From assembly GCA_025149125.1 (NCBI GenBank), contig CP102272.1, positions 4,340,001 to 4,404,000 on the forward strand: a stretch of DNA of 64,000 nt. The letters run 5' to 3'. The notes below the pieces were generated by a model that had not been told where the DNA came from, searched no databases, and worked only from the letters and a program-made list of their open reading frames with translations. This stretch comes from [Clostridium] asparagiforme DSM 15981. Lineage in GTDB: Bacteria; Bacillota; Clostridia; Lachnospirales; Lachnospiraceae. The position numbers and the translations under genes are program-made. Shown piece by piece: positions 41,321 through 58,178 of this stretch (positions within the stretch are counted from its first letter, which is position 1; every line of letters starts with the position of its first letter).

Positions 41321-41517
41321 ATAGTATTTTCCCGCGCGGTTTTTCTGGCATTTCCCCCTCACTTTGGTCAATTTATCGACAACAAAATCATTGACCGCAA
41401 TCTGCCTTTACATTTCTCCCGCCATCACGCGGCAAAACGGCGGCACGCAGTCCTCACAAAGGCCTGCATGCCGCTGGATCGCTCCTTCCCATACCGTCTG
41501 CCAAAATTAAAAGGGGA

Positions 41518-42381
41518 TCAAAGGTCCTCTTCCTCGCGCAGAATGTCGTCTACCTCCTTCCGCCCGATCCCGCAGTCCTCGGCAATCTGATCCCGCGTGA
41601 ACCCCTTCGCCGACAGGCGGAGCACCCGCTTTGTGAGGGCGATCCCCTGTTCGATTCCCTGTTCGATCCCACGGGCAATCCCGTCCTCAACCAACATTTG
41701 ACCAAGTCTCGTCATCGCAATCATCTCCTTTACCTGTTCCAGATCCCCGGCGGATAAGAACTTATCCGCAAACGTGTACAACACCGCCTGCATTTTTTCC
41801 ATCTCCAGGCCGGTCACCGCCGCCTCTTCCTCCTGAAGGATTTCCAGGCTTTTCACAATCCGCTCTCTCACGCTCAGACGGCTGGACATCAGCGGCGTCA
41901 GAAGTAACGGCACCAGCTCTGCCTTCTGAACCTTCCCGCCATTTCTGCGCTTCTCCTCCAGCCCCGCGAATACCTTGTCCCCGTCCCGGCTTCTCATCCG
42001 GATCACGCGCACCCGGTAAACATTGATCCCCTCCGCCAGCTCGGTGACCGGTTCCGTCACCCGGGAGGAGCAGATCACGTAAGTGACCACAGCCACCCTG
42101 TGGGTGCGGCTTGTGGAAGCCTCATACTCCCGGAACCTCCGCAGGTCTTCCAGGGTGATGAGATCGCTCTCAAACTCCAGATGCACCCAATAGCCGCCCT
42201 CCATCACATAATTGAAGTCCTGGTACATTTTCCGGGCTTCCAGCTTCACCGTCTCCGTAGGTGCGGCCAGCGCCACCACCCCGGGTACGCCCATAAACCG
42301 CAGCAGCTCCTCACCAAAATACTGGGCCGCCGTTTTGAGCGCCAGGTCCTCGTGATGAATCCCCTGTTTTTCTTTGTCCAC
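41518..42381 (-). CDS. Rpn/PD-(D/E)XK nuclease-like protein
   Basis: A 287-residue protein resembling recombination-promoting nuclease (Rpn)/DUF4351-type proteins. A predicted PD-(D/E)XK core is visible as DFNYVMEGGYWVHLEFES near residues 70-88, which supplies the Asp and Glu-x-Glu-type acids. The C-terminus has the repetitive coil GIEQGIEQGIALTKRVL and a small HTH-like end (TRDQIAEDCGIGRKEVDDIL). The start is set at the GTG at 42381 because AAGGAGG lies just upstream; an earlier GTG at 42417 lacks a site. It could act on DNA during recombination, or be a toxin-like element. Confidence 0.7.
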   Translation of the reverse strand: MDKEKQGIHHEDLALKTAAQYFGEELLRFMGVPGVVALAAPTETVKLEARKMYQDFNYVMEGGYWVHLEFESDLITLEDLRRFREYEASTSRTHRVAVVTYVICSSRVTEPVTELAEGINVYRVRVIRMRSRDGDKVFAGLEEKRRNGGKVQKAELVPLLLTPLMSSRLSVRERIVKSLEILQEEEAAVTGLEMEKMQAVLYTFADKFLSAGDLEQVKEMIAMTRLGQMLVEDGIARGIEQGIEQGIALTKRVLRLSAKGFTRDQIAEDCGIGRKEVDDILREEEDL

Positions 42382-42699
42382 ACAGCCTCCTTGTCCCGCA
42401 AAGCTATGTGCAAACACCTGTCTACATTATAATTATAACAACTATTCCGGCACCAGGCAACCGGCCCCCGCGATATTTCAATCAACCTTATGTATTATAC
42501 ATATTATACTACAGATTGTCGTTTAACTGAACATTCGTCCGAAACGGACTGGATAATCGACTGCCGCGCGGTCTGACCGCCCACGGCAAAATGAATGAAA
42601 CATATGATGATTCGATCGTTGTGAATCCGGCAGACAGGCATTTGGCACACGCTCCGGTTCCCGGTGTTTCTTTAATATAACACAAAGAATGGCGGTTGC

Positions 42700-42760
42700 C
42701 AAGACGGATATTCAGCGGCTTCTGTATTTCTGCAAATCAGCCGCCGGATATCCGTCTTTG
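42700..42760. repeat. Long inverted repeat downstream of the sugar-acid operon
   Basis: A 21-nt arm at 42700-42720 (starting CAAGACGGATATTC) and its near-complement at 42739-42760 (two mismatches) enclose an 18-nt loop, 16 nt past the stop of the zinc dehydrogenase. No T-run follows, so it may protect mRNA 3' ends or terminate weakly. The rest of 42382-42775 shows no gene. Confidence 0.6.
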
Positions 42761-42775
42761 TACCGGAACCGGCCG

Positions 42776-43795
42776 TCAGGTGAAATCCAGCATCACCTTC
42801 AGGCTTTTGCCTGGATGATTTTTAAAATCCTCAAACGCCCGGGCTGCGTCTTCAAATTTATAAAGGTCCGTTATGGCCTTCCCAACATCCGCGTTTTTGC
42901 TCCGGATGAGTTCGATTAATTCAATAAAATCATCCTTAAAAGCATTGCGCGATCCCAGAATATTGAGTTCCTTCTTCTGTATCATGGTAAAATTGAAATC
43001 TGCGTTTTTCTTCCCGATTCCGATCTGTACCACACGCCCGCCAAAACAGGCGGAATCAATACAGTTCTGAAATGTATCCGGCAATCCCACGGCCTCTATG
43101 GTCACGTCAAACCCGTCCCCGTCTGTTATATCGTTCACCGCCCGTTCAAGGACCTCTGCGGATTCATTTAATATGGCGCCGTCCACTCCAAAATTTTTTG
43201 CGTATTCCAGCTTATCCTCCGCCACATCCGAAATATAGACCTGGGCTCCCGCCGCCTTGGCGGCCACGGCCGCGAACACTCCGATGGTTCCGGCCCCTAC
43301 CACCAAAACCTTCTCGCCGCGCTTAACGGCGGCTCTCTTCACCCCGTGATAGCTGATGCAGAAGGGCTCCACCAGCGCCAACAGCTTGGGATCCAGTCCC
43401 TTTCCGTCATAAATCCGCTCCACCGGCATGGTGATATACTGCGCAAAGGCCCCTTCTCTCTGGACGCCCATCGTCTCGTTGCCCGTGCAACAGTTTACAA
43501 GCCCTCTCCGGCATGAATAGCATTTTCCGCAGTTAAAATACGGATTCGCGGTCACGATCATCCCCGCTTTCAAGCCGTATTCATTTTCTCCGACCTCCAC
43601 TATTTCCGCCGAGAACTCATGTCCGGGAATACGCGGATAGGACACATACGCCAGCGTGCCCCGGTATGTATTTAAATCTCCGCCGCAGATCCCCCCATAA
43701 AGTAACTTTAAAAGCGCCTCGCCTTTTTTAGGCACGGGCTTTTCCATCTCGATCAATTCCACCTCTCCGGGTGCGTTAATCCTGATCGCCTTCAT
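42776..43795 (-). CDS. Zinc-dependent medium-chain dehydrogenase (sugar-acid/polyol type)
   Basis: A 339-residue MDR-family NAD(P) dehydrogenase. The catalytic-zinc Cys lies in GGICGGDLNTY, followed by GHEFSAE (His-Glu) and a structural zinc cluster CGKCYSCRRGLVNCC (C-x2-C-x2-C-x7-C). The Rossmann glycines are VVGAGTIGVFAA near residue 170. The family includes sorbitol, L-idonate 5- and L-galactonate 5-dehydrogenases. The ATG at 43795 follows AGGAGG. Last gene of the sugar-acid operon, so it probably oxidises or reduces a hexonate or keto acid intermediate; the exact position attacked is unknown. Confidence 0.85.
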   Translation of the reverse strand: MKAIRINAPGEVELIEMEKPVPKKGEALLKLLYGGICGGDLNTYRGTLAYVSYPRIPGHEFSAEIVEVGENEYGLKAGMIVTANPYFNCGKCYSCRRGLVNCCTGNETMGVQREGAFAQYITMPVERIYDGKGLDPKLLALVEPFCISYHGVKRAAVKRGEKVLVVGAGTIGVFAAVAAKAAGAQVYISDVAEDKLEYAKNFGVDGAILNESAEVLERAVNDITDGDGFDVTIEAVGLPDTFQNCIDSACFGGRVVQIGIGKKNADFNFTMIQKKELNILGSRNAFKDDFIELIELIRSKNADVGKAITDLYKFEDAARAFEDFKNHPGKSLKVMLDFT

Positions 43796-43814
43796 CCGTT
43801 GTACCTCCTGTCTG

Positions 43815-44897
43815 TCAGGATATATATAAATGATTTCCCGACGCAGCCTCGCACTGATACATAGGAATACTGCTTCGAAACAGCACCTCACTTCTGACAT
43901 AGACATTCTCCGACGGGGGAGCAATATTTCTCAGCAGATATTCCGTGAGATACTGAGTCGCCACATATGCCTGGCGGTAAGTATTCTTATGAAGCAGATT
44001 TGAGAAAATCCCCTGCTCCAGGCAGCACATATTTTCCGGGAACAGATCGCTTCCCACGGCAAGCACGCTGCCTTTTCGACCGCAGCTCTCGATGGCTTTG
44101 CCCAGAAAGATACTCCCCCGCGCTGTAACGCTGGAACAGGATTTAATGTTGTAATTGTTATGGAACTGCTCGCATATCTTCTCATAGGTTACGCTGTCGT
44201 AACCCGGGATCCGTATGATCCTGTTTTTGATTCCATATTTTTGAATGTAGGAGTCGAACCCCTCTACAATGAGGAAATGGGAGGGAACCGTCTCGTTTCC
44301 GATGCACAAGAGCACCTCGTCCTCGTCCCCAAGCCTGCTCGTCAGTATCTCCCCAAGAATCTCTCCAAGGATCCGGTAATGGGTTTGAACACAGCACAGC
44401 CGGTTGATTTTTTCATTGTCATTTCCCACCAGCGCCACGGGAATCCCCGCCTCCGAATATTTACCCACAGGCGGCACGATTCCGGAGGACGAATACCCGA
44501 CGGAAATGATTCCGTCAATCTGGCCTTCAGCGGACAGCTGGTCAAGTTTTTCCTCAATATACCGGTGATCCGGCTCATCTCTGTACGGAATCTCAACCGC
44601 CTTTATGCTGAAATCCGCCAGCGTTTTCATATAATCGCGAAAGCCCTTCCAAATATCCGCATAATAATAGCGGTATTCCCCTGTCTCCTGTGGAAAAAGC
44701 GCCGCAATACAGTAAGGCTTCCGTTTCAGGGAAGCTGCGACCGTATTTGAATGGTAGTCAAGCTCTTTTGCGATCTCACAGATGCGGTTTCTGGTTTGTT
44801 CACCCACACCTGGTTTGTTATTCAGGGAGGCATGGACTGTCGACAATGATACGCCCGCCCTGGCAGCGATATCCTTAATAGTGGTTCTGGTTTTCAC
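43815..44897 (-). CDS. LacI-family regulator of the sugar-acid operon
   Basis: A 360-residue LacI/GalR regulator. The HTH starts TTIKDIAARAGVSLSTVHASLNNKPGVGEQTRN (residues 4-36), with an unusual His-Ala where most have Ser-Arg, then the hinge helix region VAASLKRKP and a sugar-binding core. It sits inside the operon, 30 nt after the LarA-like gene, so it would be autoregulated through the paired operators at 53536-53583. Note that the recognition helix differs from standard LacI members. Confidence 0.88.
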   Translation of the reverse strand: MKTRTTIKDIAARAGVSLSTVHASLNNKPGVGEQTRNRICEIAKELDYHSNTVAASLKRKPYCIAALFPQETGEYRYYYADIWKGFRDYMKTLADFSIKAVEIPYRDEPDHRYIEEKLDQLSAEGQIDGIISVGYSSSGIVPPVGKYSEAGIPVALVGNDNEKINRLCCVQTHYRILGEILGEILTSRLGDEDEVLLCIGNETVPSHFLIVEGFDSYIQKYGIKNRIIRIPGYDSVTYEKICEQFHNNYNIKSCSSVTARGSIFLGKAIESCGRKGSVLAVGSDLFPENMCCLEQGIFSNLLHKNTYRQAYVATQYLTEYLLRNIAPPSENVYVRSEVLFRSSIPMYQCEAASGNHLYIS

Positions 44898-44926
44898 GAG
44901 TTCAGACCTTTCGATTTTTTTTAAGT

Positions 44927-46219
44927 TTAACTCATAAAACCTTCCCCGTCAAACAGGATTTCTTCCGGACCTCTCACATATTCAATGTCCGGCTGATCCC
45001 TGATCGCCTCATACAGCGCCTCCGACACCTGCAGTTCCTTCATGGACAGCGTGTCTTTGATTCGCGCCACCCTGTGCGGTCTGGGCGCGCCGTTGCAGCA
45101 GCGCAGGGCTATGGTCAGGGCTTCCTTGTCATTGTTGACGTACATCGGTATTTTGGAGCCCTGTATCTCAGTGGCGGTGATCAGATTGGTCCATGTCTCC
45201 GACCAGTCTATGTCATTTAAACAGCGCCGGGTGGTGATATCCGCCTCATTGATTCCGCTGCCATTGTGATGGCTCTCCGGCGTCAGCCCTCTTATAAACA
45301 ATCGCTTGATTCGGACCGGGTCCTCAAAACCATAACACCGGCTGTTCGAGCGCCCCACCACATTGGGGTCAAAGCCATAGCCGCTGATATTCTTACCGAT
45401 CCGGTCGATGATCAACACGTCGATATCGTCAAACTTAAAACCGGCCAGCTGCTGCTTGGCTGCCTTTAACAGGCGCGCGTCTGCCTCCATGATCTGCGCT
45501 CCCGGAATCACCTCCAGCGTATGGATCTCATCGTATGCGTTCTGGATCATTCCTACGCCGAACGCCACGGGAGCCGCCTGCAAAAACTGCCGGGCCGCTT
45601 CCGTAATAAAACTTCCGAACCCGCAAAATCCCTGTGAGTGGATGGCTGCGGCCCCCTTGTGCTTGCCCAATCCGATTGCGATCATTTTGCACAGGCCGCT
45701 CTCATGCTCATTTCGAAAATCCGTATGCGGTTTTATCTTGTGGCAGATCACGATACCGTCCGACTCAAACGCAAGCTTGTCGCAGAACAGCGGAATCCCA
45801 TTGGGCAGCGTTCCGTACTGCACCACGTCCATAGAGGATCTGATGGGCGCTCCGATTCCTGCCTCGGTAATTCCGTAGGAGGCCAGAACCTCCTCCTGCC
45901 CCTTGGCGGTGGCGCCTCCGTGGCTTCCCATGGCAGGCACGACAAAGGGCTTGGCCCCCCATTCCTTCAGGATATCGCAGATGGCTCTGAGGATTACCAC
46001 AATATTGGGAATTCCCCTGCTGCCCGCAGTGATAGCGATGCGCTTGCCTTTAAAACGCTCAGGCGCTCCCGCGTTCGCCTCCATCTGTTCCCTGATATGA
46101 AGGGGTATGTCGGCAATCTGATAGGTGTCGAAATGCTGCCGTATGGTAACCATTTTGGGGATCGTGACTTCCCTGTCCTGGATCATAAGGTCGTTAATTT
46201 CCGGAAAATTGATAAACAT
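44927..46219 (-). CDS. LarA/DUF2088-family racemase or epimerase homologue
   Basis: A 430-residue protein of the lactate racemase family. The N-terminal domain has ITAGSRGIPN, then VPAMGSHGGATAKGQEEVLASYGI. The residues I align with LarA's cofactor and acid/base set are His100, His165, Lys178 and His194; in LarA (from memory) these are His108, His174, Lys184 and His200, and the Lys-to-His spacing of 16 is identical. This predicts a nickel-pincer cofactor enzyme inverting an alpha-hydroxy centre. larB, larC and larE, needed to make the cofactor, are not in the window. Its place in a sugar-acid operon suggests an aldonate or uronate substrate. Confidence 0.8.
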   Translation of the reverse strand: MFINFPEINDLMIQDREVTIPKMVTIRQHFDTYQIADIPLHIREQMEANAGAPERFKGKRIAITAGSRGIPNIVVILRAICDILKEWGAKPFVVPAMGSHGGATAKGQEEVLASYGITEAGIGAPIRSSMDVVQYGTLPNGIPLFCDKLAFESDGIVICHKIKPHTDFRNEHESGLCKMIAIGLGKHKGAAAIHSQGFCGFGSFITEAARQFLQAAPVAFGVGMIQNAYDEIHTLEVIPGAQIMEADARLLKAAKQQLAGFKFDDIDVLIIDRIGKNISGYGFDPNVVGRSNSRCYGFEDPVRIKRLFIRGLTPESHHNGSGINEADITTRRCLNDIDWSETWTNLITATEIQGSKIPMYVNNDKEALTIALRCCNGAPRPHRVARIKDTLSMKELQVSEALYEAIRDQPDIEYVRGPEEILFDGEGFMS

Positions 46220-46238
46220 GTTGTTTCCCTCGGTTCTC

Positions 46239-47531
46239 CTAGAATACTAAATTGACAATTCCCAGCGTAAATACCGGCACAAAGGTCAGCAACGCCAGGC
46301 AGCCCAGCGCCAGCGCGTAAAATGGCAGGCCCGCTACGATAAAATCTTTCATCTTGCACTTGGTGATGCCGCAGACGGTAAACATAAGCGTTCCCATAGG
46401 CGGAGTTACCGCGCCTATCGCCATGTTGAAATTGAAGATCAGCGCAAACTGGATCGGATCCACGCCAAAGGCAACCGCCATGGGATGGAGCAGCGGTACC
46501 AGCACGATCAGCGCCGCGTTTCCCTCGATGAACATTCCCACAAACAGAAGGAATACATTGACAATCACCAGAAACGCGTATTTTCCGCCGATATAGGTGG
46601 TCATCAGGGCCGTCAGCTTCTGGGGAATCTGCTCTCTGGTCAAAATCCAGGAAAACGCCGATGCCGCCGACACGATAATCAGCACGGAAGCCGTGGTAAG
46701 CACGCTCTCCCTGAGCCCTTTTTTCAGCTCGCCCCAGCCCAGCTCCCGGTAGAGAACCCCCAGGATAATGGAGTAAACCACCGCGATGGACCCCGCCTCC
46801 GTGGGCGTGCAGATGCCCAGCCGGATGCCTCCTATAATGATAACCGGCAGGCAGAGCGGCAGAATTGCGTGGCGAAATTTCGTGCCCAGCTCCTTCCTGT
46901 CCATCCTGGCCTGTCCGTACGCCTGGTAGCCGCGCTTTTTAGAGATAATCCCGCAGAGTAACATCATCGATGTACACAACAGCAAACCAGGACCGATCCC
47001 CGCGATAAACAGTTTCCCGATGGACAGATTGGCGATTGAACCGTACAGAATCGCCGCGATTCCCGGAGGGATTAAGGGCGTGATGATCGATGAAAATGCC
47101 GTCACCGCCGAAGAAAACGGCTTGCTGTATCCATGGCGTTCCATCTCCGGCTCCAGCATCTTGGCCTCCATGGCGGCATCCGCCAGGGAAGAACCCGACA
47201 GGCCCCCCATCATCGTCGACAGCAGCACATTCACCTGCGCCAGACCACCCGGCAGTTTACAGGTCAGCACCGTACAGAAATCCATGATCCGCTTAGTGAC
47301 GCCCGTATAATTCATAAATACGCCCGCCGCGATAAAAAACGGCACGGCCAGAAGCGGGATGCTCTCGATCCCGGCGATCATCCTCTGAATAATCAGGTAG
47401 ATGGTAACGTCCGGCTGCAGCACGAAATAAATAATGGTGCTGCCAAGGATTGCCCCGTAAACGGGAACCTTGAGGAAGAGGAGAATCAAGAGCGCGATGC
47501 ACGAAAATCCTATGATTGTTCCTGAGCTCAT
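46239..47531 (-). CDS. dctM: TRAP transporter large permease (DctM)
   Basis: A 430-residue membrane protein with about 12 hydrophobic segments, the Na+- or H+-coupled translocating subunit of a tripartite ATP-independent transporter. Family-type motifs include FFIAAGVFMNYTGVTKRI near residue 65, MMGGLSGSSLADAA near residue 110 and FNFNMAIGAVTPPMGT near residue 370. It overlaps dctQ by 4 nt. Substrate is a carboxylate, presumably a sugar acid from the operon context. Confidence 0.92.
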   Translation of the reverse strand: MSSGTIIGFSCIALLILLFLKVPVYGAILGSTIIYFVLQPDVTIYLIIQRMIAGIESIPLLAVPFFIAAGVFMNYTGVTKRIMDFCTVLTCKLPGGLAQVNVLLSTMMGGLSGSSLADAAMEAKMLEPEMERHGYSKPFSSAVTAFSSIITPLIPPGIAAILYGSIANLSIGKLFIAGIGPGLLLCTSMMLLCGIISKKRGYQAYGQARMDRKELGTKFRHAILPLCLPVIIIGGIRLGICTPTEAGSIAVVYSIILGVLYRELGWGELKKGLRESVLTTASVLIIVSAASAFSWILTREQIPQKLTALMTTYIGGKYAFLVIVNVFLLFVGMFIEGNAALIVLVPLLHPMAVAFGVDPIQFALIFNFNMAIGAVTPPMGTLMFTVCGITKCKMKDFIVAGLPFYALALGCLALLTFVPVFTLGIVNLVF

Positions 47532-48043
47532 ACGTCTTGCCCCCTTTCGCGGTCCGCGGTGTCTTCGTCAGAGCCGCCTTTCCATAATTGATATAGTTCC
47601 GCCAGCATGTTGCAGATCATGAGAAAGCAGCCCACCGGAACCGCCGAATAGATCAAAGCATAGGGCACCTTTGTGTAGCTGGTAGCCCGTCCGGTGTTCA
47701 GCATCTGCCCCACCAACCGTCCTCCCTGGACCATAAGGAACAGCAGTATGAATACCATGAGCACATTGACCGCCGCGGCGATAATCCTCTGCACCTTCTT
47801 TGGAAATGATTCCACCAGTATCTCGATGGCGATATGCCCTCCGTTGCGGTAGACGGCTCCCGCCCCCAGATAGACCAGCCATACCATACACCACAGCTGA
47901 ACTTCCTCCAGCCACACTATGGGGTGAAAGAAGATGTAGCGCGAAAACACGCTGATACAGGTCAGGCCCACGAGAACCGTCAGCACCGCGCTTGTCAAAA
48001 CCAAATCCAAATTCAAAAATATGACCTTTAGTTTCGTTTTCAT
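47528..48043 (-). CDS. dctQ: TRAP transporter small permease (DctQ)
   Basis: A 171-residue membrane protein with four helices; the segment GLTCISVFSRYIFFHPIVWLEEVQLWCMVWLVYLGAGAVYRNGGHI is the standard DctQ core. The start at 48043 follows AGGAG; the longer in-frame start (48106) would add charged residues without a ribosome site. It forms the membrane complex with DctM and sits 80 nt after dctP. Confidence 0.9.
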   Translation of the reverse strand: MKTKLKVIFLNLDLVLTSAVLTVLVGLTCISVFSRYIFFHPIVWLEEVQLWCMVWLVYLGAGAVYRNGGHIAIEILVESFPKKVQRIIAAAVNVLMVFILLFLMVQGGRLVGQMLNTGRATSYTKVPYALIYSAVPVGCFLMICNMLAELYQLWKGGSDEDTADRERGQDV

Positions 48044-48123
48044 GAAACCCCTTCTCCTTGTTGGACAGTCCATGCACATAACTACCCGCCGGACAATTAT
48101 GTGCATGTCTGTGACGGTAACGG

Positions 48124-49233
48124 CTACTTGCCGATCGCGGCCCTCACTACATTGTAAAGATCCGGAGTGCTCCAGCTTCCGTTCACTTCAGGATCCGTGT
48201 AAACGCCGGAGGTAGCTTCCTTCCAGAGAGCCAGCTCCTCATCGGAGAGTTCATAAACCTCAACCCCCGCTTCCTTCATCAGCTTGAGGCACTCTTCCGA
48301 CGTAGTCTCCACAGCCTCATTGTTGGCTTTCGCGCCCTCATGCATGGCATTGATCAACGCTTCCTGCTGCTCTGCGGTAAGAGAATTATAGAAATCCGCT
48401 CCGCAAATCCAAAGCGAAATATTCTTGACCATTCCGTCCCGCACAATATACTTACACACCTCATGGAACTTGTTATTGTACATGGTTGTGAAGGTATTCT
48501 CAAGACCGTCGATGGTTCCCTGCTGCAGCCCTGTATAGACGTCGCCCAGGGCCATGGGTGTGGGAGCTGCCCCCATATTGGAGAAGGTCTTGATCTGGAT
48601 CGGGAACGCGTTTACACTGATTTTCGTGCCTTTGAAATCATCCGGGACATGGATCGGTTTGGAGCTCATCGTGTAGCGCTCACCGTAAATCCAGTCCGCC
48701 CCGATGACCTTAAGCCCCTTTGTCTCCAGCTCCGCGTTGATGCTCTCAAACCAGTCTGTCTCAAAGGTAGCCCAGGCGTCATCCCATGTGTCGAACAAGA
48801 ACGGTCCGAACAGAATGCTGAAATCCGGCACAAAATCGCTGAGGTACAGTCCGTCCGCCACCGTGACCACGGAATCCCCCGCAAGCATCTGATCAATCAG
48901 ATTGGACTTGTTGCCCAGCTGGCTGGAGGGATATAAGACCACCTCCCAGTTGGCTGTCCCGTCGGACTCCAACGCTGTTTTTACGGCGTTGGCGCCAAGG
49001 TCGGCTGGTTCGCCCGGATTCAGCTCATATCCGATTTTAACATTTACCTTTGGCAGTTCTGCCGCGGGCGTCTCCGCCTTGGCTCCCTCAGCCTGCGTCC
49101 CCTCCTCTTTCGCCGACTCCGCCTGCGTCTGGGCGGGCGCCTCCGTTGTCTTCGCCGCTCCTCCCCCGCAGCCTGCCAGTATTCCGGAAACCAATGCCGC
49201 CGTCAAACATAATGCCGTTACTCTTTTCTTCAT
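48124..49233 (-). CDS. dctP: TRAP transporter substrate-binding lipoprotein (DctP)
   Basis: 369 residues. The signal peptide MKKRVTALCLTAALVSGI ends in lipobox LAGC, followed by a Glu/Ala/Thr-rich linker of about 45 residues. The mature part is a DctP family periplasmic-type fold with KIGYELNPGEPADLGANAVKTALE, FKGTKISVNAFPIQIKTFSNMGAAPTPM and GLQQGTIDGLENTFTTMYNNKFHEV, the segments that hold the carboxylate-binding Arg/Asn sites of the family. Binds the acid sugar imported by DctQM. Confidence 0.92.
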   Translation of the reverse strand: MKKRVTALCLTAALVSGILAGCGGGAAKTTEAPAQTQAESAKEEGTQAEGAKAETPAAELPKVNVKIGYELNPGEPADLGANAVKTALESDGTANWEVVLYPSSQLGNKSNLIDQMLAGDSVVTVADGLYLSDFVPDFSILFGPFLFDTWDDAWATFETDWFESINAELETKGLKVIGADWIYGERYTMSSKPIHVPDDFKGTKISVNAFPIQIKTFSNMGAAPTPMALGDVYTGLQQGTIDGLENTFTTMYNNKFHEVCKYIVRDGMVKNISLWICGADFYNSLTAEQQEALINAMHEGAKANNEAVETTSEECLKLMKEAGVEVYELSDEELALWKEATSGVYTDPEVNGSWSTPDLYNVVRAAIGK

Positions 49234-49288
49234 CGTAAACCCTCCTTAAAATATGTATGTTTTTCCGCCCTGTAAAGGCGGTTTTTAC

Positions 49289-50404
49289 TTACGCGCGTAA
49301 ATCCCTGTAGGATACGCATTTGCGTTGAATCAGCTCCCAGTCCAGCTCAACTCCCACCCCTGGCCGGTCCGAAACGGTTATGATTCCGTTTTGGATCGGA
49401 AGATTCCCCTGCATCGGAAGGCGGAAATTGTCCTCCGGGACAAAATACTCAAACCACTCGCTGTTCCGCACGGCGCAGGCCACATGAAGGGTGGCCATAT
49501 CCATATAGTTCATGGTGGTCGTATGCATCTCGCAGTTCATGCCGAAGCTTTCCGCCAGATGGGCGATTTTAAGCGTCCCCGTGATCCCCCATTTCCATGA
49601 GACATCGGCTCTCACCAGGTCGGTTGCCCGGTTGAGGATGGACTGAGCGGCTCCCCAGTGACACCCCCTGCTGGTCTCAGTTGCCAGTATGGGAATGTCC
49701 AGGGCGCTGCAGAGTTCCGTATATTTGTTGATCTCAAAATCCCGGAAGGGTTCCTCAAACCACAGATACCCCAGGTCCTCCAGATTCCTTCCCACCCGGA
49801 TGGCGTCGCCCAGCGTGTACTCCCCAACCGGATCCGTCATCAAATCCATGGTGGTTCCCACGCCGTCTCTCAGGGCGGTATGAACTGCGATATCCTCCCG
49901 CCATACCCCCGACGGATGGGCTTTGTAACAGCGGATCCCCTGCTCCCTGTACCGCAGGGCCTCCTCCACATATTCCTCCGGCCTATCGTGAAACAGGCCG
50001 CTGGCGTAGACCGGCAGCTGGTTCCGGTAAGCCCCCAGGTACTTGTAAAGCGGAAGTCCCGCCTCCTTTGCAGCCATATCCCAAAGCGCCACATCCACCG
50101 GCCCGGGAAGGTAAACCGGGAAAAAAGTCAGATTGCGGTCAATATTCCACAAATCCTGCCATATGGCCTCCCGCTCATATGCGGACCTGCCCAGAACCAC
50201 CGGCGCAATATTATCCTCCAGGTAGCTCTCCGTCACCCTGGCCGAACGGGCCGCCATTGCCGTGGCGATCCCCTCCGCGCCGTTATCAGCCGTAAGCTTA
50301 ATCACCACCACGTCCCAGTCCATCTTTGATCTGCCGCGGTGTTTTTCGTCGAAAAAGTTCTCGCCCCTCTGCACCCACCACGTCTCAAAACGCTCGATCC
50401 TCAC
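49289..50404 (-). CDS. Enolase-superfamily sugar-acid dehydratase (mandelate racemase subgroup)
   Basis: A 371-residue MR/MLE-type enzyme. Expected catalytic elements: Lys161 and His163 in CYKAH (K-x-H where the classic subgroup has K-x-K), metal ligands around Asp191, Glu217/218 (WFEEPF) and Glu243 (ATETSRG), and the Asp267-His294 dyad with the same 27-residue spacing as mandelate racemase (Asp270-His297). It most likely dehydrates an aldonate to a 2-keto-3-deoxy acid. The unusual His163 argues against simply naming a known substrate. Confidence 0.85.
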   Translation of the reverse strand: MRIERFETWWVQRGENFFDEKHRGRSKMDWDVVVIKLTADNGAEGIATAMAARSARVTESYLEDNIAPVVLGRSAYEREAIWQDLWNIDRNLTFFPVYLPGPVDVALWDMAAKEAGLPLYKYLGAYRNQLPVYASGLFHDRPEEYVEEALRYREQGIRCYKAHPSGVWREDIAVHTALRDGVGTTMDLMTDPVGEYTLGDAIRVGRNLEDLGYLWFEEPFRDFEINKYTELCSALDIPILATETSRGCHWGAAQSILNRATDLVRADVSWKWGITGTLKIAHLAESFGMNCEMHTTTMNYMDMATLHVACAVRNSEWFEYFVPEDNFRLPMQGNLPIQNGIITVSDRPGVGVELDWELIQRKCVSYRDLRA

Positions 50405-50418
50405 GCTCGCTTATCCCC

Positions 50419-51126
50419 CTATAAAATACCGTATTTTGCAAATGCCTCCGTGGCTGTCATACCGTTTTCAATCGCCGCGCGCACGGTCTTTTCTCCCGCC
50501 GCCTTGACAAAAGCCCTTTCCAGAACCTGCTCATGGATTTCCCTTGGAATCACCAGTACGCCGTCCACATCGCCGAACACCACGTCGCCGTCGCGGATTG
50601 TCACCTGACCGATCTCAATGGTGCATCGAAAATCGCAGACATATGTCCGGACGCTGGAATCCTGCGCCCAGCAGGCCCTGGCGAATACCGGGAAATTGAG
50701 TCCGATCACCTGGGGCGTATCCCTCGTGTAGCCGTCTAAAACAGCTCCCGCAGCGCCCCTGACCTTTGCCGTCGTGGTCAGAAGCTCTCCCCACAGCGCA
50801 GAATGGTGAGCGCCTGTGGCCACGTAAATTTCATTTGGTTTTAACTGATCCAGCGCCTCCGTCAGGTAGCCGAAGGGCTTTTTCGGCTCCTCAAATACAT
50901 CGTTCTCCAAAATCGTACAGGCAAAGCCCGCCAGCTTCAGCCGGTTGTCCTCCCCGTCCCCTTTTATGTAGGCCTGGACCGGAGCCAGAGCGGCCAGGGG
51001 CCTTATCTGCGCCGGAAGGAATTGATGCTTATACCCCATCTGGTCCAGGATATCCCCCACAACCGGGGTGTACAATTTCTCCTTCATCAGCGCAAACATT
51101 TCTTCATCATTTTTCCACATAGCCAT
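50419..51126 (-). CDS. RraA/HMG-aldolase-family protein
   Basis: A 235-residue RraA-like protein. The active-site pattern of class II HMG/CHA aldolases is seen: GELLTTTAKVRGAAGAVLDGYTRD near residue 110-133 (Arg and Asp for metal) and GDVVFGDVDGVLVIP near residue 180. Such proteins split 4-hydroxy-4-methyl-2-oxoglutarate-like or other 2-keto acids to pyruvate, or decarboxylate oxaloacetate. In this operon it could cleave the 2-keto-3-deoxy acid, as no KDPG-type aldolase is present. Earlier labels as menaquinone methyltransferase should be ignored. Confidence 0.85.
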   Translation of the reverse strand: MAMWKNDEEMFALMKEKLYTPVVGDILDQMGYKHQFLPAQIRPLAALAPVQAYIKGDGEDNRLKLAGFACTILENDVFEEPKKPFGYLTEALDQLKPNEIYVATGAHHSALWGELLTTTAKVRGAAGAVLDGYTRDTPQVIGLNFPVFARACWAQDSSVRTYVCDFRCTIEIGQVTIRDGDVVFGDVDGVLVIPREIHEQVLERAFVKAAGEKTVRAAIENGMTATEAFAKYGIL

Positions 51127-51139
51127 ATGAGTCCTCCGA

Positions 51140-51937
51140 TCAAAAGCCGATCAGCGCGCCGCCGTCCACCGGAATACATGTGCCGCTGATGTAACGGGCC
51201 GCATCGCTGCAGAGAAAGGCGGCGCACATGCCCACGTCCATTGGGTCTCCCACTGTCTTTGCCGGTATGCGCCCCATGATCTTGGCAAGGCGCGGCGGAT
51301 CATTGTCCACCGCCTTGTGGAACATGGGCGTGTCAATCCACCCGGGCGCTATGGCATTGACCGTTATGCCAAACTCCGCCAGCTCTGCCGTCAGCGTATG
51401 GATCAGCCCCAGATATCCCGCCTTTGCGGTCGCGTACCCCGCCACCATCGGCTGGCCGATATAACTGGTCATGCTGGCCTGAAACAAAATGCGCCCGCGG
51501 CCAAGTTCCTTCATCTGCGGCACAAACGCCTTTGTCAGGGCGAACGCTCCTACCAGATGAACGTTCAGAACCTTGACGTAATCTTCCACCGTCATGTCCC
51601 AGATATATTTCTTGCAATGATTCCCCGCATTATTAACCAGAATACCGACGGGTCCATGTTCCCGCAGAATACGCCCGGCTATCTCCTGGGTGTGCGCCGT
51701 ATCGGTGATATCAAACTGATAGAATACGGTTTTATCACCGAATTCCTTTAATGATGCGCAAGCCTGCTCCTCGCTTTCATAACTTAAAACCACTACCTTT
51801 GCGCCGGCGCTCACAAGGCACCTGGTAATGGCAAGCCCCAGGCCGGTGGATCCCCCTGTGACAACTGCCGTCTGGCCGTCCAGGGAATAGCACCTGGACA
51901 TACAGAAATCCTTTAACTGCTCATCGGTAAATACCAT
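51140..51937 (-). CDS. SDR-family oxidoreductase (gluconate 5-dehydrogenase-like)
   Basis: A 265-residue short-chain dehydrogenase. The nucleotide motif TGGSTGLGLA is near residue 21, NNAG near residue 105, the catalytic Ser in LFQASMTSY, and Tyr-x3-Lys in YATAKAGYLG near residue 168. The C-terminus CIPVDGG is typical. The closest families by eye are 2-keto-3-deoxy-gluconate or gluconate 5-dehydrogenases (KduD/Ga5DH). It lies 13 nt upstream of the RraA gene and 4 nt after the UxaA large subunit. Confidence 0.88.
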   Translation of the reverse strand: MVFTDEQLKDFCMSRCYSLDGQTAVVTGGSTGLGLAITRCLVSAGAKVVVLSYESEEQACASLKEFGDKTVFYQFDITDTAHTQEIAGRILREHGPVGILVNNAGNHCKKYIWDMTVEDYVKVLNVHLVGAFALTKAFVPQMKELGRGRILFQASMTSYIGQPMVAGYATAKAGYLGLIHTLTAELAEFGITVNAIAPGWIDTPMFHKAVDNDPPRLAKIMGRIPAKTVGDPMDVGMCAAFLCSDAARYISGTCIPVDGGALIGF

Positions 51938-51941
51938 AACA

Positions 51942-53174
51942 TTAAACCTCTCCTTCTATTTGATCGCAAACGCGTTTGACCCCCACGTTCTTGTCCTGAT
52001 ATTTGTAAGGTATGTAGTATTCTTTGTGGCCCAGCGCCTCGCTTCTGGTCATCTCGCCGCCGGCCACCCGCCCGGCCAGCCCGGCCAGCCGCCCGGCCAG
52101 TTCGTCCAGGGAACACTCTCCCCTCAAAACAGCGCCCGCATCAAAATCCATATCGTCCTTCATGCGGAGAAAGGTGCTGCTGTTGCCCGTGATTTTGATA
52201 ACCGGGGCCACAGCGCTCCCCACCACATTCCCAGCGCCCGTAACCAGAAAGGTCAGGTGGCAGCCGCAGGAGATCAGATCCGTCAACCCCTCGTTGTCAT
52301 TTGGATTTGTAATGCCAAACTGCATCCAGTGGGGATCAGGCGTGGAATCGAGCAGCCACAAGCCCGGATGTCCCGGCCTTCCCCCCACCTTCAGAACCCC
52401 TTCAATGGGACGGGAACCGCTTTTTACGACAGCGCCCATGCTTTTCTCCTCGATTGTGGAAAGACCGCCTGCAAAATTCCCCGGACTTACGGAATATTGG
52501 CGCACGGATTTGCAGTAATCAAGGGCCTTGTGATAGGTGTAACGGATCTCTTCCCGGGCCCTGTCAGTAGCCGCTCTGTCCAGAAGGCTGTCCAGCAGCC
52601 CAACCGCCTCCACGATCTCCTCAAAAATCGCGGTACCGCCCTGGTCAACCAGCCGGTCAAAAAATCTGCCCACCACCACATTCCCGGCAAGCCCGCTTGT
52701 GAAATCGCTTCCGCCGCATTCCGCCCCGACTACCAGATCGGAAAACCCCATAGGGACAACCGGTACCTGCTTCAACTGTTCCATCATGTCCCGGCAGTAA
52801 CCCAGCCCCTTTTCAATCGCTTTCTCCGTACCGCCCTCATTTTGGATAAACATCCACGCTCCGGGCTTTCCCTCCTCCCTGGCAATCCTGCACAGCCACT
52901 CAGGCTGCACATACTCGCAGCCAAGCCCGACGGTGAGCACCGCGCCCACGTTGGGGTGGCGGATCAGCGCGATCAAAAGCCGAACCGCATACTCATTGTC
53001 GGTACATCCCTGAAAGCCGACCACTTCCACCTCGCTGCAGTTCATCCTCCGGACAATCTCATCCGCCACGAAATGAGAACACTCCACCGTATAGATCACC
53101 AGCAATTTATTCCGGATACCGATTCTCCCATCCAGGCGCTTAAAGCCGTTCCATGTATGCTCAGACGTTCGCAT
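51942..53174 (-). CDS. UxaA-family altronate dehydratase, large subunit
   Basis: 410 residues, matching the C-terminal part of UxaA/GarD: WNGFKRLDGRIGIRN at the start, VVGFQGCTDNEYA, GAECGGSDFTSGLAGNVVVG near residue 165 and a C-terminal TRSEALGHKEYYIPYK. The cysteines in these segments fit an iron-binding dehydratase. The start at 53174 is chosen because GAGGTGG precedes it; the ATG at 53192 overlaps the preceding gene and lacks a site. It works with the SAF subunit encoded next to it; together they are the split form of single-chain altronate/galactarate dehydratases. Confidence 0.88.
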   Translation of the reverse strand: MRTSEHTWNGFKRLDGRIGIRNKLLVIYTVECSHFVADEIVRRMNCSEVEVVGFQGCTDNEYAVRLLIALIRHPNVGAVLTVGLGCEYVQPEWLCRIAREEGKPGAWMFIQNEGGTEKAIEKGLGYCRDMMEQLKQVPVVPMGFSDLVVGAECGGSDFTSGLAGNVVVGRFFDRLVDQGGTAIFEEIVEAVGLLDSLLDRAATDRAREEIRYTYHKALDYCKSVRQYSVSPGNFAGGLSTIEEKSMGAVVKSGSRPIEGVLKVGGRPGHPGLWLLDSTPDPHWMQFGITNPNDNEGLTDLISCGCHLTFLVTGAGNVVGSAVAPVIKITGNSSTFLRMKDDMDFDAGAVLRGECSLDELAGRLAGLAGRVAGGEMTRSEALGHKEYYIPYKYQDKNVGVKRVCDQIEGEV

Positions 53175-53184
53175 ATTTACCACC

Positions 53185-53511
53185 TCATTCATATTTAATA
53201 TCGCAGGGGGCGCCCGTATAGAGATCCAGGTGACTCGACCGCTCGTCGTATATACTGCGCATACAGTGCAGATGCACCCACTGACCGCATTTTATATCCC
53301 TGGTCGCACGCCCAATGACGGCTCCGTATTTTATAATATCGTCCCCACTCGTTATATCGTTCACAGCAATCTTATGTCCGATGGGGATATTCTCAAGCAC
53401 AGAAACCGAGTCCGTCTTCCGGTCCCCCTTCACCTGCGCGGGGCCGGGCGTCAGCGGCGCCAGGGCCGTAGCCACATTGTCTTTCATTTCCACTTGAAAA
53501 ATTACCTGCAT
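53185..53511 (-). CDS. UxaA-family dehydratase, small (SAF) subunit
   Basis: A 108-residue protein whose core is the SAF domain usually found at the N-terminus of UxaA: ENIPIGHKIAVNDITSGDDIIKYGAVIGRATRDIKCGQWVHLHCMRS (about residues 40-86). It is the first gene of the operon, with TSS predicted about 45 nt upstream and two LacI-type operators at the promoter. Confidence 0.88.
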   Translation of the reverse strand: MQVIFQVEMKDNVATALAPLTPGPAQVKGDRKTDSVSVLENIPIGHKIAVNDITSGDDIIKYGAVIGRATRDIKCGQWVHLHCMRSIYDERSSHLDLYTGAPCDIKYE

Positions 53512-53535
53512 TTTTATACCCTCACATCCTTTAGG

Positions 53536-53591
53536 CGAAACGTTTCTGTAAAATCTGCTTTCATCATATACCGAAACGTTTCGCTTGTCAA
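53536..53591 (-). promoter_or_regulatory. Promoter with paired LacI-type operators for the sugar-acid operon
   Basis: On the minus strand the -35 TTGACA (53591-53586) and -10 TATGAT (53568-53563) have a 17-nt spacer. The palindrome CGAAACGTTTCG (53572-53583) sits inside the spacer. A second copy, CGAAACGTTTCT (53536-53547), lies just downstream of the expected start site near 53556. Their centres are 36 bp apart. Confidence 0.85.
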
Positions 53592-53736
53592 TAATCTTTT
53601 TGTATTTGCCGCCAATTCCGTCATTATTGACAAATTAATATCATAATTTTAGCTACAATATCCATATAAGGCGGGCAATCTGGTTCCATCCAACCATCGT
53701 CCACAGACTGTGCCGGAAGCCGTTTGCATCCAAACG

Positions 53737-53783
53737 AAAAAGGAACCCTGCCGGCAGTTTTGCCGGAACAGAGTTCCTTTTTC
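53737..53783 (-). terminator. Terminator of the mannosidase-glucokinase operon
   Basis: On the minus strand AAAAAGGAAC pairs with GTTCCTTTTT around an inner TCCGGCA-loop-TGCCGG stem, ending in a T-run. It is a strong intrinsic terminator about 70 nt after the glucokinase stop. The rest of the 53512-53852 gap holds the operator region and no gene. Confidence 0.8.
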
Positions 53784-53852
53784 AAATATGGGGTTTTCAT
53801 TCGGTGGACGCTTCTTCTGTCCGGTTTCAGGATTTCGCCATGCGAAAGCCGC

Positions 53853-54809
53853 TCAACGCCTCCCAAGCAGCGCCGCCCCGATCAATCCCGCGTCGTTTCC
53901 CAGCTCCGCCAGGCGGATATCCGTGTGGACGCTGCTGTCCCTGGCGTAATCCTCCTCCGCCACAAGCCGTTTCAACGGCTCCAGCAGCAGCTCCCCCGCC
54001 CGGCTGACGCCTCCGCCGATGCAGATGATCTCCGGCTGAAAGATGTTGACCAGGTTGGTGACGCCGATTGCCAGATAACCGATATACCGCTCCACCACCA
54101 TGGCCGCAGTCTGGTCTCCGCGTCCGGCCGCCTCAAAGACGGTTCTGCCGTCCGCCATCCGCTTGTCTCCTCCGCAGAGCTCCCACAGCAGAGACCCGGG
54201 CGCGCTGTCCATTGCCTCCCGGGTCTGGCCGATCAGGGCCGTGGCCGATGCCAGGGCCTCGAAGCAGCCTCTGCGTCCGCAGTTACACTCCGGCCCGTTC
54301 CGGTCGATCACCATATGGCCCAGCTCCCCGGCGCCGTAGTTCACGCCGTTCCAGAGCTTCCCGCCCAGGATGATTCCTCCGCCCACGCCTGTGCCCAGGG
54401 TCACAGCGATCATGGAATCGGCTCCCCTTCCGCCTCCCGCCAGGTACTCGCCCCAGGCCGCGGCGTTGGCGTCGTTGTCAAACCAGATCTTTTTGCCCGG
54501 AAAACAGCCCGCCATCATCTCCACAATGGGCTCGTGGAGAAAGCCCAGATTGTTGGCGAATTCCAGTACCCCTTCCTTCTGGTTGGCAGTGCCGGGCACC
54601 CCCATACCCACGGCGCTCACCTGCTCGATGGGAACGCCCGCCTGCTCTGCGGCTCTGCGGCCCGCGTGAGCCATGTCCGCCGCGATCTCCGCCGCAGGAC
54701 GGCCCGCCCCGGTGGCAAGGTTGGCCCTGCCCAGGATTTTTCCCTGTTCATCCACCAGAGCCGCCGCAATATTGGTGCCTCCCAGGTCGATTCCGATATA
54801 ATATTCCAT
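53853..54809 (-). CDS. glcK: ROK-family glucokinase
   Basis: A 318-residue ROK sugar kinase. The ATP-binding start is GIDLGGTNIAAALVDEQG, the catalytic Asp lies in IWFDNDANAAAWGEY, and the ROK zinc motif CNCGRRGCFEALAS near residue 170 is complete with GELGHMVID. It phosphorylates glucose or another hexose with ATP. As the last gene after the mannosidase, it probably phosphorylates the hexoses released, such as mannose or glucose; this is inference. Confidence 0.88.
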   Translation of the reverse strand: MEYYIGIDLGGTNIAAALVDEQGKILGRANLATGAGRPAAEIAADMAHAGRRAAEQAGVPIEQVSAVGMGVPGTANQKEGVLEFANNLGFLHEPIVEMMAGCFPGKKIWFDNDANAAAWGEYLAGGGRGADSMIAVTLGTGVGGGIILGGKLWNGVNYGAGELGHMVIDRNGPECNCGRRGCFEALASATALIGQTREAMDSAPGSLLWELCGGDKRMADGRTVFEAAGRGDQTAAMVVERYIGYLAIGVTNLVNIFQPEIICIGGGVSRAGELLLEPLKRLVAEEDYARDSSVHTDIRLAELGNDAGLIGAALLGRR

Positions 54810-54877
54810 GTTGTCCTCCTGTTATCATCAAAATGCCGCCGTCGTTTCCGCCAACCAGCGCCTCAATATCAGCAATA

Positions 54878-57800: not shown

Positions 57801-58165
57801 TGGTTTAAATCCATGGTGCCGTACATCTGCCCGTCCCGGTACACGATCACCTGGGGATTGTCCGTGTTCCAGAGATCCGTCGCCCCGGTGGACAGGCAGA
57901 GAAGAACCTTTTCCCCACGCCAGTCCGCCGGCAGCTTCACCTGCGTGTCGAACCAGAAATGCCGGTCCGACCCGCCCCAGGTGTCCCCGGGGAGCGCCGT
58001 CTCCCAGTTCAGCCCCGCAAACGCCTCCGCTTCCGGTTCAAAAACAGCGGGCAGATCATATGCCGCGTCCGCCCGCCTGATGGTCTCCGGGCGGAGCCGC
58101 CCTTTAAAGCGCAGCTCCCCCAGTGTCTTTATAATTGTATGGATTCTGTCCCATTTTCGATTCAT
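54878..58165 (-). CDS. Alpha-mannosidase, glycoside hydrolase family 38
   Basis: A 1095-residue GH38 enzyme. A beta-sandwich N-terminal region is followed by the catalytic domain starting near residue 245: VHGIGHTHIDVAWKWPLRQTRQKA (zinc-binding His and Asp), then WLPDVFGYCVALPQILRQAG with the nucleophile Asp near residue 375, and SIGEVYQDSD. C-terminal beta-domains complete it. No signal peptide, so intracellular action on imported alpha-mannosides is likely. The start at 58165 is used since the upstream gene stops at 58179 and the earlier frame overlaps it. Confidence 0.9.
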   Translation of the reverse strand: MNRKWDRIHTIIKTLGELRFKGRLRPETIRRADAAYDLPAVFEPEAEAFAGLNWETALPGDTWGGSDRHFWFDTQVKLPADWRGEKVLLCLSTGATDLWNTDNPQVIVYRDGQMYGTMDLNHNRILLAERAAGGETVDLSFYAYSNSAGRTNFFDVSLCALDREIDQLYYDLKVLWDLADLMGDEENGRLEREEVLNRCVNLLDLRDVSGPAFAQSVKAAEAFLQTAHYSAERPLPRVVVHGIGHTHIDVAWKWPLRQTRQKAVRSFLTVIRLMEEYPEYRFMSSQPQLYQFVKEEAPWLYEKIRERVREGRWETEGAMWLEADCNLSSGESLIRHILYGKAFFQEEFGTGDGQEVLWLPDVFGYCVALPQILRQAGIRYFMTTKLGWNEYNQIPNDTFYWRGLDGSEVLTYFITTSDYKKYPQVGGRRSFETTYNGRMNASQVMGTWQRYRNKDLSRDVLTCFGFGDGGGGTTREMLEEEKRLEAGAGNFTGDCPAVRITGVKEFFHILENNLEGKKVPRWCGELYLEFHRGTYTSMARIKKNNRECEFLLMDAELLCVMAGLADQGFSYPQQELKEAWKLLLLNQFHDILPGSSIGEVYQDSDRQFARLREICAQVTERAKRGIAAAGHDEPDGKWFVVNQLGFDRSGLVETVVNGQKRLLLVENVPAKGVRVLSPSDWTAREEAEGTGVVLSWENGDGGYLAGLRTDFYDLRFDGAGEIVSLYDRREEREIIAAGRTGNALMVFEDRPESYDAWNIDESYEEKQWAVTDVTRLELVENTAVRAVVRCEKRFMSSAIRQDICFYRHTARIDFVTTVDWRESQLMLKAAFPVDVLAERAVYDVQFGNVERPTHRNTSWEQAKFEVCAHKWADLSEYGYGVALLNNCKYGYDIHDGVMRLTLIKSGIFPYPDADQEIHRFTYALYPHAGDFRAGRVVREAYDLNCPLIGWQTERKQENGMEVWGDGKKAEVGCRNCKTAAARRGDGENAAMGPGSGRTTAALTGAPLTGFSLIRVRAENVIVETVKQAEDGDGIVIRLYEAYGKRTRAAVEASILAGKQLWACSCMENRLRELKHDGERAEITVKPYEILTLKIC

Positions 58166-58178
58166 ATTCCGTCCCGCC

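Follow-up and report, generated by a model that had tools for sequence, protein, structure and literature searches.

What does the eleven-gene operon at positions 42776–53591 of [Clostridium] asparagiforme DSM 15981 DNA take up, and how does the breakdown of its substrate end? The operon lies in the window, the whole 64,000-nucleotide stretch analyzed here, which covers positions 4,340,001–4,404,000 of the single 6.35 Mb contig. We propose, giving the idea about an even chance of being correct, that the operon is controlled by LacI and allows a six-carbon aldonate, of the stereochemical class of L-galactonate and D-altronate, to be imported and broken down. In the proposed pathway, the aldonate would be taken up by the transporter DctPQM, oxidized at C5 by a zinc-dependent dehydrogenase (L-galactonate to D-tagaturonate), reduced by a short-chain dehydrogenase/reductase (SDR) from D-tagaturonate to D-altronate, dehydrated to 2-keto-3-deoxygluconate (KDG) by a split altronate dehydratase that consists of a SAF subunit and a UxaA large subunit, and cleaved in unphosphorylated form into pyruvate and glyceraldehyde by RraA. 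An enolase-superfamily enzyme (MR) would feed a second aldonate to the same aldolase, a LarA homologue would change the C2 configuration of a hydroxy acid that enters, and LacI would bind to two palindromes at the promoter and be released by the substrate or an intermediate. Each reaction, substrate, and direction is predicted from sequence, and the substrates of LarA and MR are the weakest parts of the proposal.

The eleven open reading frames are all on the minus strand, from 53511 down to 42776, and were assigned by Pfam and NCBIfam matches, in the order SAF, UxaA/GarD large subunit, SDR, RraA, MR, DctP, DctQ, DctM, LarA, LacI, and zinc dehydrogenase. The intergenic distances are -8, 4, 13, 14, 55, 17, -4, 19, 29, and 19 bases, in agreement with the tightly spaced same-strand genes of the initial annotation, and the GC content is 0.541 in the operon versus 0.558 in the window.

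The predicted route to KDG and its substrate class

The zinc-dependent dehydrogenase (42776–43795), proposed as an L-galactonate (hexonate) 5-dehydrogenase on the basis of NCBIfam and comparison with LgoD, most likely starts at 43795, with an ATG behind AGGAGG that gives 339 amino acids, as in the 339-amino-acid orthologue at locus L036; the TTG at 43924 of the mechanical call, which overlaps lacI, was disfavored against it. Among eight zinc dehydrogenases of Escherichia coli, LgoD, the L-galactonate oxidoreductase, was the closest to the window protein (36.6% identity, 201 bits), followed by RspB (154 bits) and Tdh (151 bits), and LgoD likewise ranked first for the orthologues at L035, L036, and L087. 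At 21 orthologous loci (L035, L036, L087, and L165–L182; 52–73% identity), we compared the gene content up to 7.5 kb from the dehydrogenase, after two fragmentary matches in genome G258 had been dropped. UxaB and/or UxaA were found at 14 of the 21 loci and both at 12, the UxaA at L035 being truncated where its contig stops. With the NCBIfam tagaturonate reductase model (cut-off 359), four scanned UxaB proteins scored 528–582 bits, and the UxaA of L036 was 50% identical to that of E. coli. TRAP genes (DctM above 500 bits) were near the dehydrogenase at six loci (L035, L036, L087, L169, L170, and L175) and a LarA homologue at three (L035, L036, and L173). This neighborhood corresponds to the E. 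coli L-galactonate route, accompanied by close relatives of the window dehydrogenase and, at six of the 21 loci, of its transporter. Because UxaB and UxaA accompany the dehydrogenase so often, the dehydrogenase, the SDR, and the split altronate dehydratase of the operon most likely make up the known route from L-galactonate through tagaturonate and altronate to KDG. The initial view that no known substrate is obvious is not supported. The backbone corresponds to a described one (PMC12632266), and it is similar to the L-gulonate genes of Haemophilus influenzae, which are fed by a TRAP transporter (PMC5788505).

The SAF-domain small subunit of the UxaA/GarD-type dehydratase (53185–53511; Pfam SAF, 26.6 bits, cut-off 21) matched E. 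coli UxaA with 41% identity over 102 residues, and the large subunit (51942–53192) was assigned by its GD_AH domain, GarD being its sole PDB relative at E ≤ 0.01. C38, C63, C92, and C159 of the large subunit are common to E. coli UxaA, GarD, and 16 of 16 orthologues aligned. The UxaA superfamily is described as having four conserved cysteines, except in sulfolactate sulfo-lyase (PMC6336799), and the four cysteines in the window presumably occupy these columns; because they are kept, a sulfolactate sulfo-lyase (SuyAB) reading of the split enzyme was ruled out. The SDR (51140–51937; domain match), proposed as a tagaturonate (5-ketoacid) reductase that replaces UxaB, adjoins UxaA and UxaC genes in relatives. 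Pfam and NCBIfam found no UxaB-family gene among the eleven genes, the SDR being in that place, and an L-gulonate/mannonate route with UxuA was ruled out, as no UxuA is among them.

The complete TRAP transporter consists of the solute-binding protein DctP (48124–49233), the small permease DctQ (47528–48106), and the large permease DctM (46239–47531), all identified by domain matches. The best PDB relatives of DctP were 4ovt and 4o8m, the same pair as for the L036 orthologue; these two were reportedly solved with L-fuconate and L-galactonate. L-Fuconate is 6-deoxy-L-galactonate. D-Altronate and L-galactonate have the C2–C4 configuration of D-arabinonate (PMC6336799). The substrate class is therefore better supported than the exact acid. 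The structure prediction for DctP was poor (mean pLDDT 35.4), and the comparison made from it, which returned 50 rows and none of a TRAP protein, was discarded. Gene content and related loci support a sugar-acid operon, as initially annotated, and gene content and neighborhoods disfavor one for a simple C4-dicarboxylate.

Several observations weigh against L-galactonate itself and against the assignment of the individual steps. Neither UxaB nor UxaA was found at 7 of the 21 dehydrogenase loci (L087, L166, L167, L176, L177, L178, and L182), the less closely related dehydrogenase encoded next to RraA at L113 (30% identity) matches YdjJ better than LgoD, and the nearest NCBIfam models of the SDR are general ones, all below their cut-offs. 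The genome contains a second L-galactonate-like set (L165, G000:C1:4570501-4590500) with a paralogous zinc dehydrogenase (69%), UxaB, and full-length UxaA, and also a cluster of UxaC, UxaA, KdgK, and Eda (L116), so that the operon and its RraA pathway may serve a different stereoisomer, a reading to which we give somewhat less than an even chance. It is consistent with this possibility that 3 of 12 genomes searched (G053, G214, and G258) have UxaC in the RraA cluster and another elsewhere, as if for another uronate. Dehydratases for D-idonate and D-arabinonate, and heteromeric ones for L-fuconate, also belong to the UxaA superfamily (PMC6336799), and altronate is therefore not assured as the substrate of the SAF/UxaA enzyme. 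The conserved UxaB/UxaA neighborhood of the dehydrogenase, on the other hand, argues for the L-galactonate route.

RraA as the proposed substitute for kinase and KDPG aldolase

The RraA-fold protein (50419–51126), which we propose to be a 2-keto-3-deoxy-aldonate aldolase, was recognized by a domain match and has an Arg-Asp pair, R135-D136, that aligned with that of 3NOJ (47.6 bits), the 4-hydroxy-4-methyl-2-oxoglutarate/4-carboxy-4-hydroxy-2-oxoadipate (HMG/CHA) aldolase in which Arg-123 is described as essential (PMC5065237). The pair was kept in 34 of 34 aligned rows, including that of the window (rows shorter than 200 amino acids or below 120 bits were left out). RraA had matches at E ≤ 1e-15 in 17 of the 299 genomes taken from the family, at E ≤ 1e-35 in 7 of the 391 taken from the class, and at E ≤ 1e-30 in 12 of the 17 of the genus, the own genome being counted each time. 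The genome sets of the family, class, and phylum searches (299, 391, 299, and 398) were subsets of larger groups. The neighborhood set comprises 34 loci besides the window, with eight weaker matches (28–36% identity, three of them own paralogues) left out. Among the loci of this study, absences are weak at L035, L112, L114, L115, L151, L175, and L176 because the contig ends there.

At least one of four unrelated dehydratase families, namely UxaA, the enolase superfamily, a UxuA-like family, and IlvD, was beside RraA at 26 of the 34 loci. The UxaA large subunit accompanied RraA at 16 loci (L083, L086, L088, L089, L111, L148–L154, L158, L159, L163, and L164), and MR orthologues above 200 bits were present at 13, which are 12 of these 16 and L087, a locus without UxaA. 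A UxuA-like gene with an SDR was found at three loci (L084, L085, and L155) and an IlvD-type dehydratase at six (L091–L093 and L160–L162; fragmentary in L161). UxaC was present at 14 of the 34 loci, 12 of them with UxaA and two (L085 and L155) with the UxuA-like gene. The four UxaC proteins scanned scored 523–605 bits (cut-off 387), and the three UxuA-like proteins 128–135 bits, below the cut-off of 191. As for other loci, L110 contains an SDR, a DhuI-like gene, and an unsaturated-glucuronyl-hydrolase-like (UGL) gene, recognized by eye, weak MR relatives are at L113, L115, L156, and L157, and nothing telling is at L090 and L114. The labels UGL, DhuI, SMP-30, and DgoK were given by eye throughout; NCBIfam offered no name for the UGL-like, the SMP-30-like, and two DgoK-like proteins and "hypothetical protein" for the DhuI-like one.

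RraA thus occurs with four unrelated dehydratase families that make 2-keto-3-deoxy acids, in the usual place of the kinase and KDPG (2-keto-3-deoxy-6-phosphogluconate) aldolase, and is therefore most simply a consumer of the 2-keto-3-deoxy acid. On the basis of this gene position across the 34 related loci, RraA is the probable 2-keto-3-deoxy-aldonate aldolase of the final step, which agrees with the non-phosphorylative route first suggested for the operon; the chemistry of 2-keto-3-deoxy acid cleavage would also suit a pyruvate aldolase of the RraA fold. Among the matches listed for the open-access literature on such pathways, RraA was mentioned in PMC5065237 and PMC8563752 only.

The initial statement that a kinase and KDPG aldolase are missing holds for the operon, among whose eleven genes Pfam and NCBIfam found neither, but the genome has five PF01081 matches elsewhere, one of them within the KdgK/Eda/UxaA/UxaC cluster L116, where Eda is over its cut-off and the KdgK-like gene below its cut-offs. 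PF01081 was present in 15 of 15 RraA- or LarA-bearing genomes searched, so that a kinase and KDPG aldolase acting in trans are possible, and one RraA locus (L112) has both Eda and KdgK. These findings weigh against cleavage by RraA and would fit a phosphorylative ending, in which KDG leaves through KDG kinase and KDPG aldolase encoded elsewhere and RraA has a side job, such as oxaloacetate decarboxylation. We consider this ending unlikely, at about half the chance of an even one, since at 33 of the 34 RraA loci, some of them on short contigs, neither Eda nor KdgK was found in the stretches examined, whereas the dehydratases there are varied.

A further point against an aldolase is that FlDet, an RraA-family enzyme that acts on a 2-keto-3-deoxy sugar acid, is described as a dehydratase/decarboxylase with a hexarate substrate (PMC8563752). 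By this precedent, the UxaA/GarD enzyme and MR could dehydrate acids of the galactarate/talarate type, and RraA could convert 2-keto-3-deoxy-hexarate to alpha-ketoglutaric semialdehyde like FlDet. Such an aldarate route would be in line with the large subunit having GarD as its one relative in PDB at E ≤ 0.01 and with talarate/galactarate dehydratase as the second NCBIfam model of MR (138 bits, cut-off 500). We nevertheless regard it as improbable, the least favored of the endings considered here, since no aldehyde dehydrogenase for alpha-ketoglutaric semialdehyde is among the eleven genes, and the presence of UxaC at 14 of the 34 RraA loci and of UxaB close to the dehydrogenase suggests aldonates that come from uronates.

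Two further features of the RraA loci were observed. An IlvD-type dehydratase, an SDR, and RraA at L091, L092, L093, L160, and L162 (with an SMP-30-like gene at four of the five) resemble an oxidative sugar route of the Dahms type with RraA as aldolase. A small esterase-like gene is with the RraA/UxaA/UxaC cluster at L148, L149, L150, L152, and L163 and hints at an acylated uronate source; that of L148 is weakly like the arylesterase lp_1002 and the pectin acetylesterase PaeX, below the cut-offs, and the other four were identified by eye.

MR, LarA, and operon control

The enolase-superfamily (MR_MLE) acid-sugar dehydratase MR (49289–50404) was assigned by its domain match and residues. K161xH163, D191, E217, E243, D267, and H294 were invariant in 13 of 13 rows, including the window (rows shorter than 340 amino acids or below 500 bits were left out), and we take them to be the KxH motif, the three metal-binding acids, and the His-Asp pair. 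The best NCBIfam model of MR was arabinonate dehydratase (150 bits, cut-off 650). The operon therefore appears to carry two dehydratases that look competent, in partial agreement with the proposed convergence of two acids; the C2 epimers linked by LarA do not make the best pair, and the epimers that the genes would best explain are the C5 epimers L-galactonate and D-altronate, which the zinc dehydrogenase and SDR would connect.

The LarA homologue (44927–46219) belongs to nickel-pincer nucleotide (NPN) isomerase group 22 (NCBIfam, 500 bits, cut-off 400). R68, H100, H165, K178, and H194 were invariant in 22 of 22 aligned rows and were matched by eye, from motifs, to R75, H108, H174, K184, and H200 of LarA1; the NPN synthesis genes LarB, LarC, and LarE are together elsewhere in the genome, all over their cut-offs. 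A search of 98 genomes, the own one among them, gave group-22 homologues at E ≤ 0.001 in 20, of which 18 exceeded the cut-off; the host genome has two more strong copies. A LarA relative was also found in Clostridium sp. MCC353, and none in viral contigs. The LarA profile gave no match in PDB, and the single sequence gave 2yjg at E 0.05 together with chance hits; the structure prediction was poor (mean pLDDT 37.5). If the numbering of NCBIfam is that of PMC7583248, the assayed groups in Table 1 of that article do not include group 22, and the term "group 22" was not found in the main texts of PMC11770544, PMC12611868, PMC7583248, and PMC11796402.

LarA neighborhoods were examined at 31 loci; all matches above 299 bits were taken, and short or weak pieces (G013:C55, G005:C1:4747311, G010:C17, G096, G026, and G000:C1:3830472) were omitted. 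A UxaA-type gene was in the same cluster at L035, L036, L039, L046, and L060 and further off at L037 and L042, and KDPG-aldolase-like genes were at L033 and L050, which suggests sugar-acid epimerases. Two side observations concern these genes. A second group-22 LarA gene of the host genome, at L033 (G000:C1:5724601-5726441), overlaps a KDPG/KDPGal-aldolase-like gene and has SDR and DgoK-like neighbors (by eye). The LarA genes of G010 (C2, C6, C17, and C25; L060–L062) matched in several pieces and are possibly pseudogenes or assembly errors.

The window LarA itself, however, is less convincing as the pathway racemase that the initial annotation suggested. In a 29-row tree, it grouped with L002, L053, L054, L056, and L057 with support of 100/100, and a branch of 0.94 separates this clade from the others, among them the LarAs of the L035 and L036 clusters; this placement counts against a sugar-acid substrate. 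T166-D167, after the second histidine, is common to the five clade members aligned and also occurs in L055 (12 of the 17 others have alanine at the second place), and H317-H318-N319 is common to the same five, the two histidines also being present in L041. At L002, the 2-hydroxyisocaproyl-CoA dehydratase-like subunits did not reach the equivalog cut-offs of 750 and 700 (518 and 438 bits), and the activase was over its cut-off; the acyl-CoA dehydratase-type neighbors at L056 and the Etf-like gene at L053 were identified by eye, and L054, on a short contig, has LarA and the transporter neighbor in common with L053. As an observation in its own right, LarA homologues that neighbor an activase gene and genes like those for 2-hydroxyacyl-CoA dehydratase, acyl-CoA dehydrogenase, and Etf (in full at L002 and L056; the Etf-like end at L053) would form an unassigned 2-hydroxy-acid fermentation cluster. 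It is therefore conceivable, with somewhat less than an even chance, that LarA racemizes a simple 2-hydroxy acid, either co-imported or produced through the operon, and not a sugar acid, as the clade and its shared residues would suggest. The position of the gene directly after DctM in a sugar-acid operon, as in L035 and L036, points instead to the pathway substrate, and the long terminal branch of the window LarA (0.68) would fit a changed substrate.

The LacI-family regulator (43815–44897; domain match) is presumably the one that controls the operon. A sigma-70-type promoter on the minus strand (53563–53591; TTGACA-17-TATGAT) matches the consensus at 11 of 12 positions, and a candidate LacI-type operator, the perfect palindrome CGAAACGTTTCG (53572–53583), is between both of its hexamers. 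A candidate second operator, CGAAACGTTTCG with one mismatch (53536–53547), is 36 bp from the first, and the chance expectation for the palindrome at up to one mismatch is 0.14 in the window. The perfect 12-mer occurs at a single place in the whole 6.35 Mb genome, as would be expected if the LacI encoded in the operon acts locally, and LacI is predicted to bind to both palindromes. In a scan of 19 loci of RraA-cluster relatives, in which palindromes of at least 14 bp were reported, palindromes of 14–16 bp with the AACGTT core of CGAAACGTTTCG were at or near the transporter genes of four (L148, L152, L153, and L154). The single promoter of the initial annotation is thus supported at the operon head, but internal transcription starts are possible because 22 promoter-like matches were found within 41500-55000 on both strands, versus 9.5 in shuffles. 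A search of Rfam at the gathering threshold gave zero matches. A GC-rich inverted repeat (49265-49281), reported on the opposite strand, separates the MR gene from dctP and is perhaps a processing or stability element, and the neighbors of the operon on the same strand (53853-58234), a ROK-family protein and a GH38 alpha-mannosidase, are apparently a separate system.

Relation to known systems

RraA, SAF/UxaA, SDR, and MR form one conserved cluster, which in relatives is usually extended by UxaC, another SDR, and either an ABC transporter or a TRAP transporter of a different kind. The type found at L035, L036, L169, and L170 is that of DctPQM and of the zinc dehydrogenase; the operon thus looks like two such modules joined. 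UxaC and the second SDR are missing from the window operon, and the zinc dehydrogenase would provide the 5-keto acid in their place. LarA was not found at any of the other 34 RraA loci within the stretches examined, so that the exact gene set was seen only in the window, and no described pathway with exactly this set was found in the open-access literature searched, as had been anticipated. We tentatively suggest, at rather less than even confidence, that the RraA clade, which spans several families of the phylum and has 34 loci in addition to the window, represents an unrecognized class of metal-dependent 2-keto-3-deoxy-aldonate aldolases of the RraA fold that end non-phosphorylative sugar-acid and sugar-oxidation routes from four unrelated dehydratase families, here with a nickel-pincer LarA recruited from 2-hydroxy-acid fermentation for a C2-epimeric hexonate. 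If RraA is an aldolase, a family that was named for an RNase E regulator, and whose sugar-acid members are hard to annotate, would gain a role in the central carbon metabolism of anaerobes, and many uronate and sugar-oxidation clusters without a kinase or KDPG aldolase would become readable. The operon would also allow a practical test of LarA group 22, to which the open-access articles consulted were not found to assign a substrate.

Among single components, the HMG/CHA aldolase 3NOJ (PMC5065237) is like the window RraA in its fold family and aligned Arg-Asp pair and differs in its distance (47.6 bits) and in its substrates, which come from aromatic degradation. FlDet of Flavobacterium sp. 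UMI-01 (PMC8563752), likened here by description only, shares the RraA family and a 2-keto-3-deoxy sugar acid substrate, whereas it acts on the hexarate as a dehydratase/decarboxylase and not as an aldolase. The split into small and large subunits is known from the heteromeric L-fuconate dehydratase of the UxaA superfamily and from SuyAB, the latter reported without the conserved cysteines that the window protein has (PMC6336799). The GntE D-gluconate 2-epimerases (PMC7583248, PMC11770544) have the LarA superfamily, the nickel-pincer residues, and the C2 inversion of a hydroxy acid in common with the window LarA; their substrate positions are usually E, V, A, and H, whereas the first two in the window protein, assigned by eye, are T and D.

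Among whole systems, the L-gulonate set of H. influenzae (GulP, GulQ, GulM, GulD, UxuB, UxuA, KdgK, and KdgA; PMC5788505) is alike in TRAP-mediated aldonate import followed by a hexonate dehydrogenase, a reductase, and a dehydratase, and differs in a dehydratase of the UxuA and not the UxaA type, a phosphorylative ending, and the absence of LarA, MR, and RraA from the set as listed in that source. In the catabolism of L-galactonate and L-glucose in E. coli and by the lgu genes of Luteolibacter LG18 (PMC12632266), a hexonate is likewise oxidized at C5, then reduced to altronate and dehydrated to KDG; an LgoD-like dehydrogenase, alike by homology only, and a UxaA-superfamily dehydratase are shared features. 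Taken together, the overall route is known, and what is new in the window is an SDR for UxaB, a split UxaA, and RraA for KDG kinase and KDPG aldolase, with MR and LarA added and a TRAP transporter that also sets the operon apart from the E. coli and LG18 pathway.

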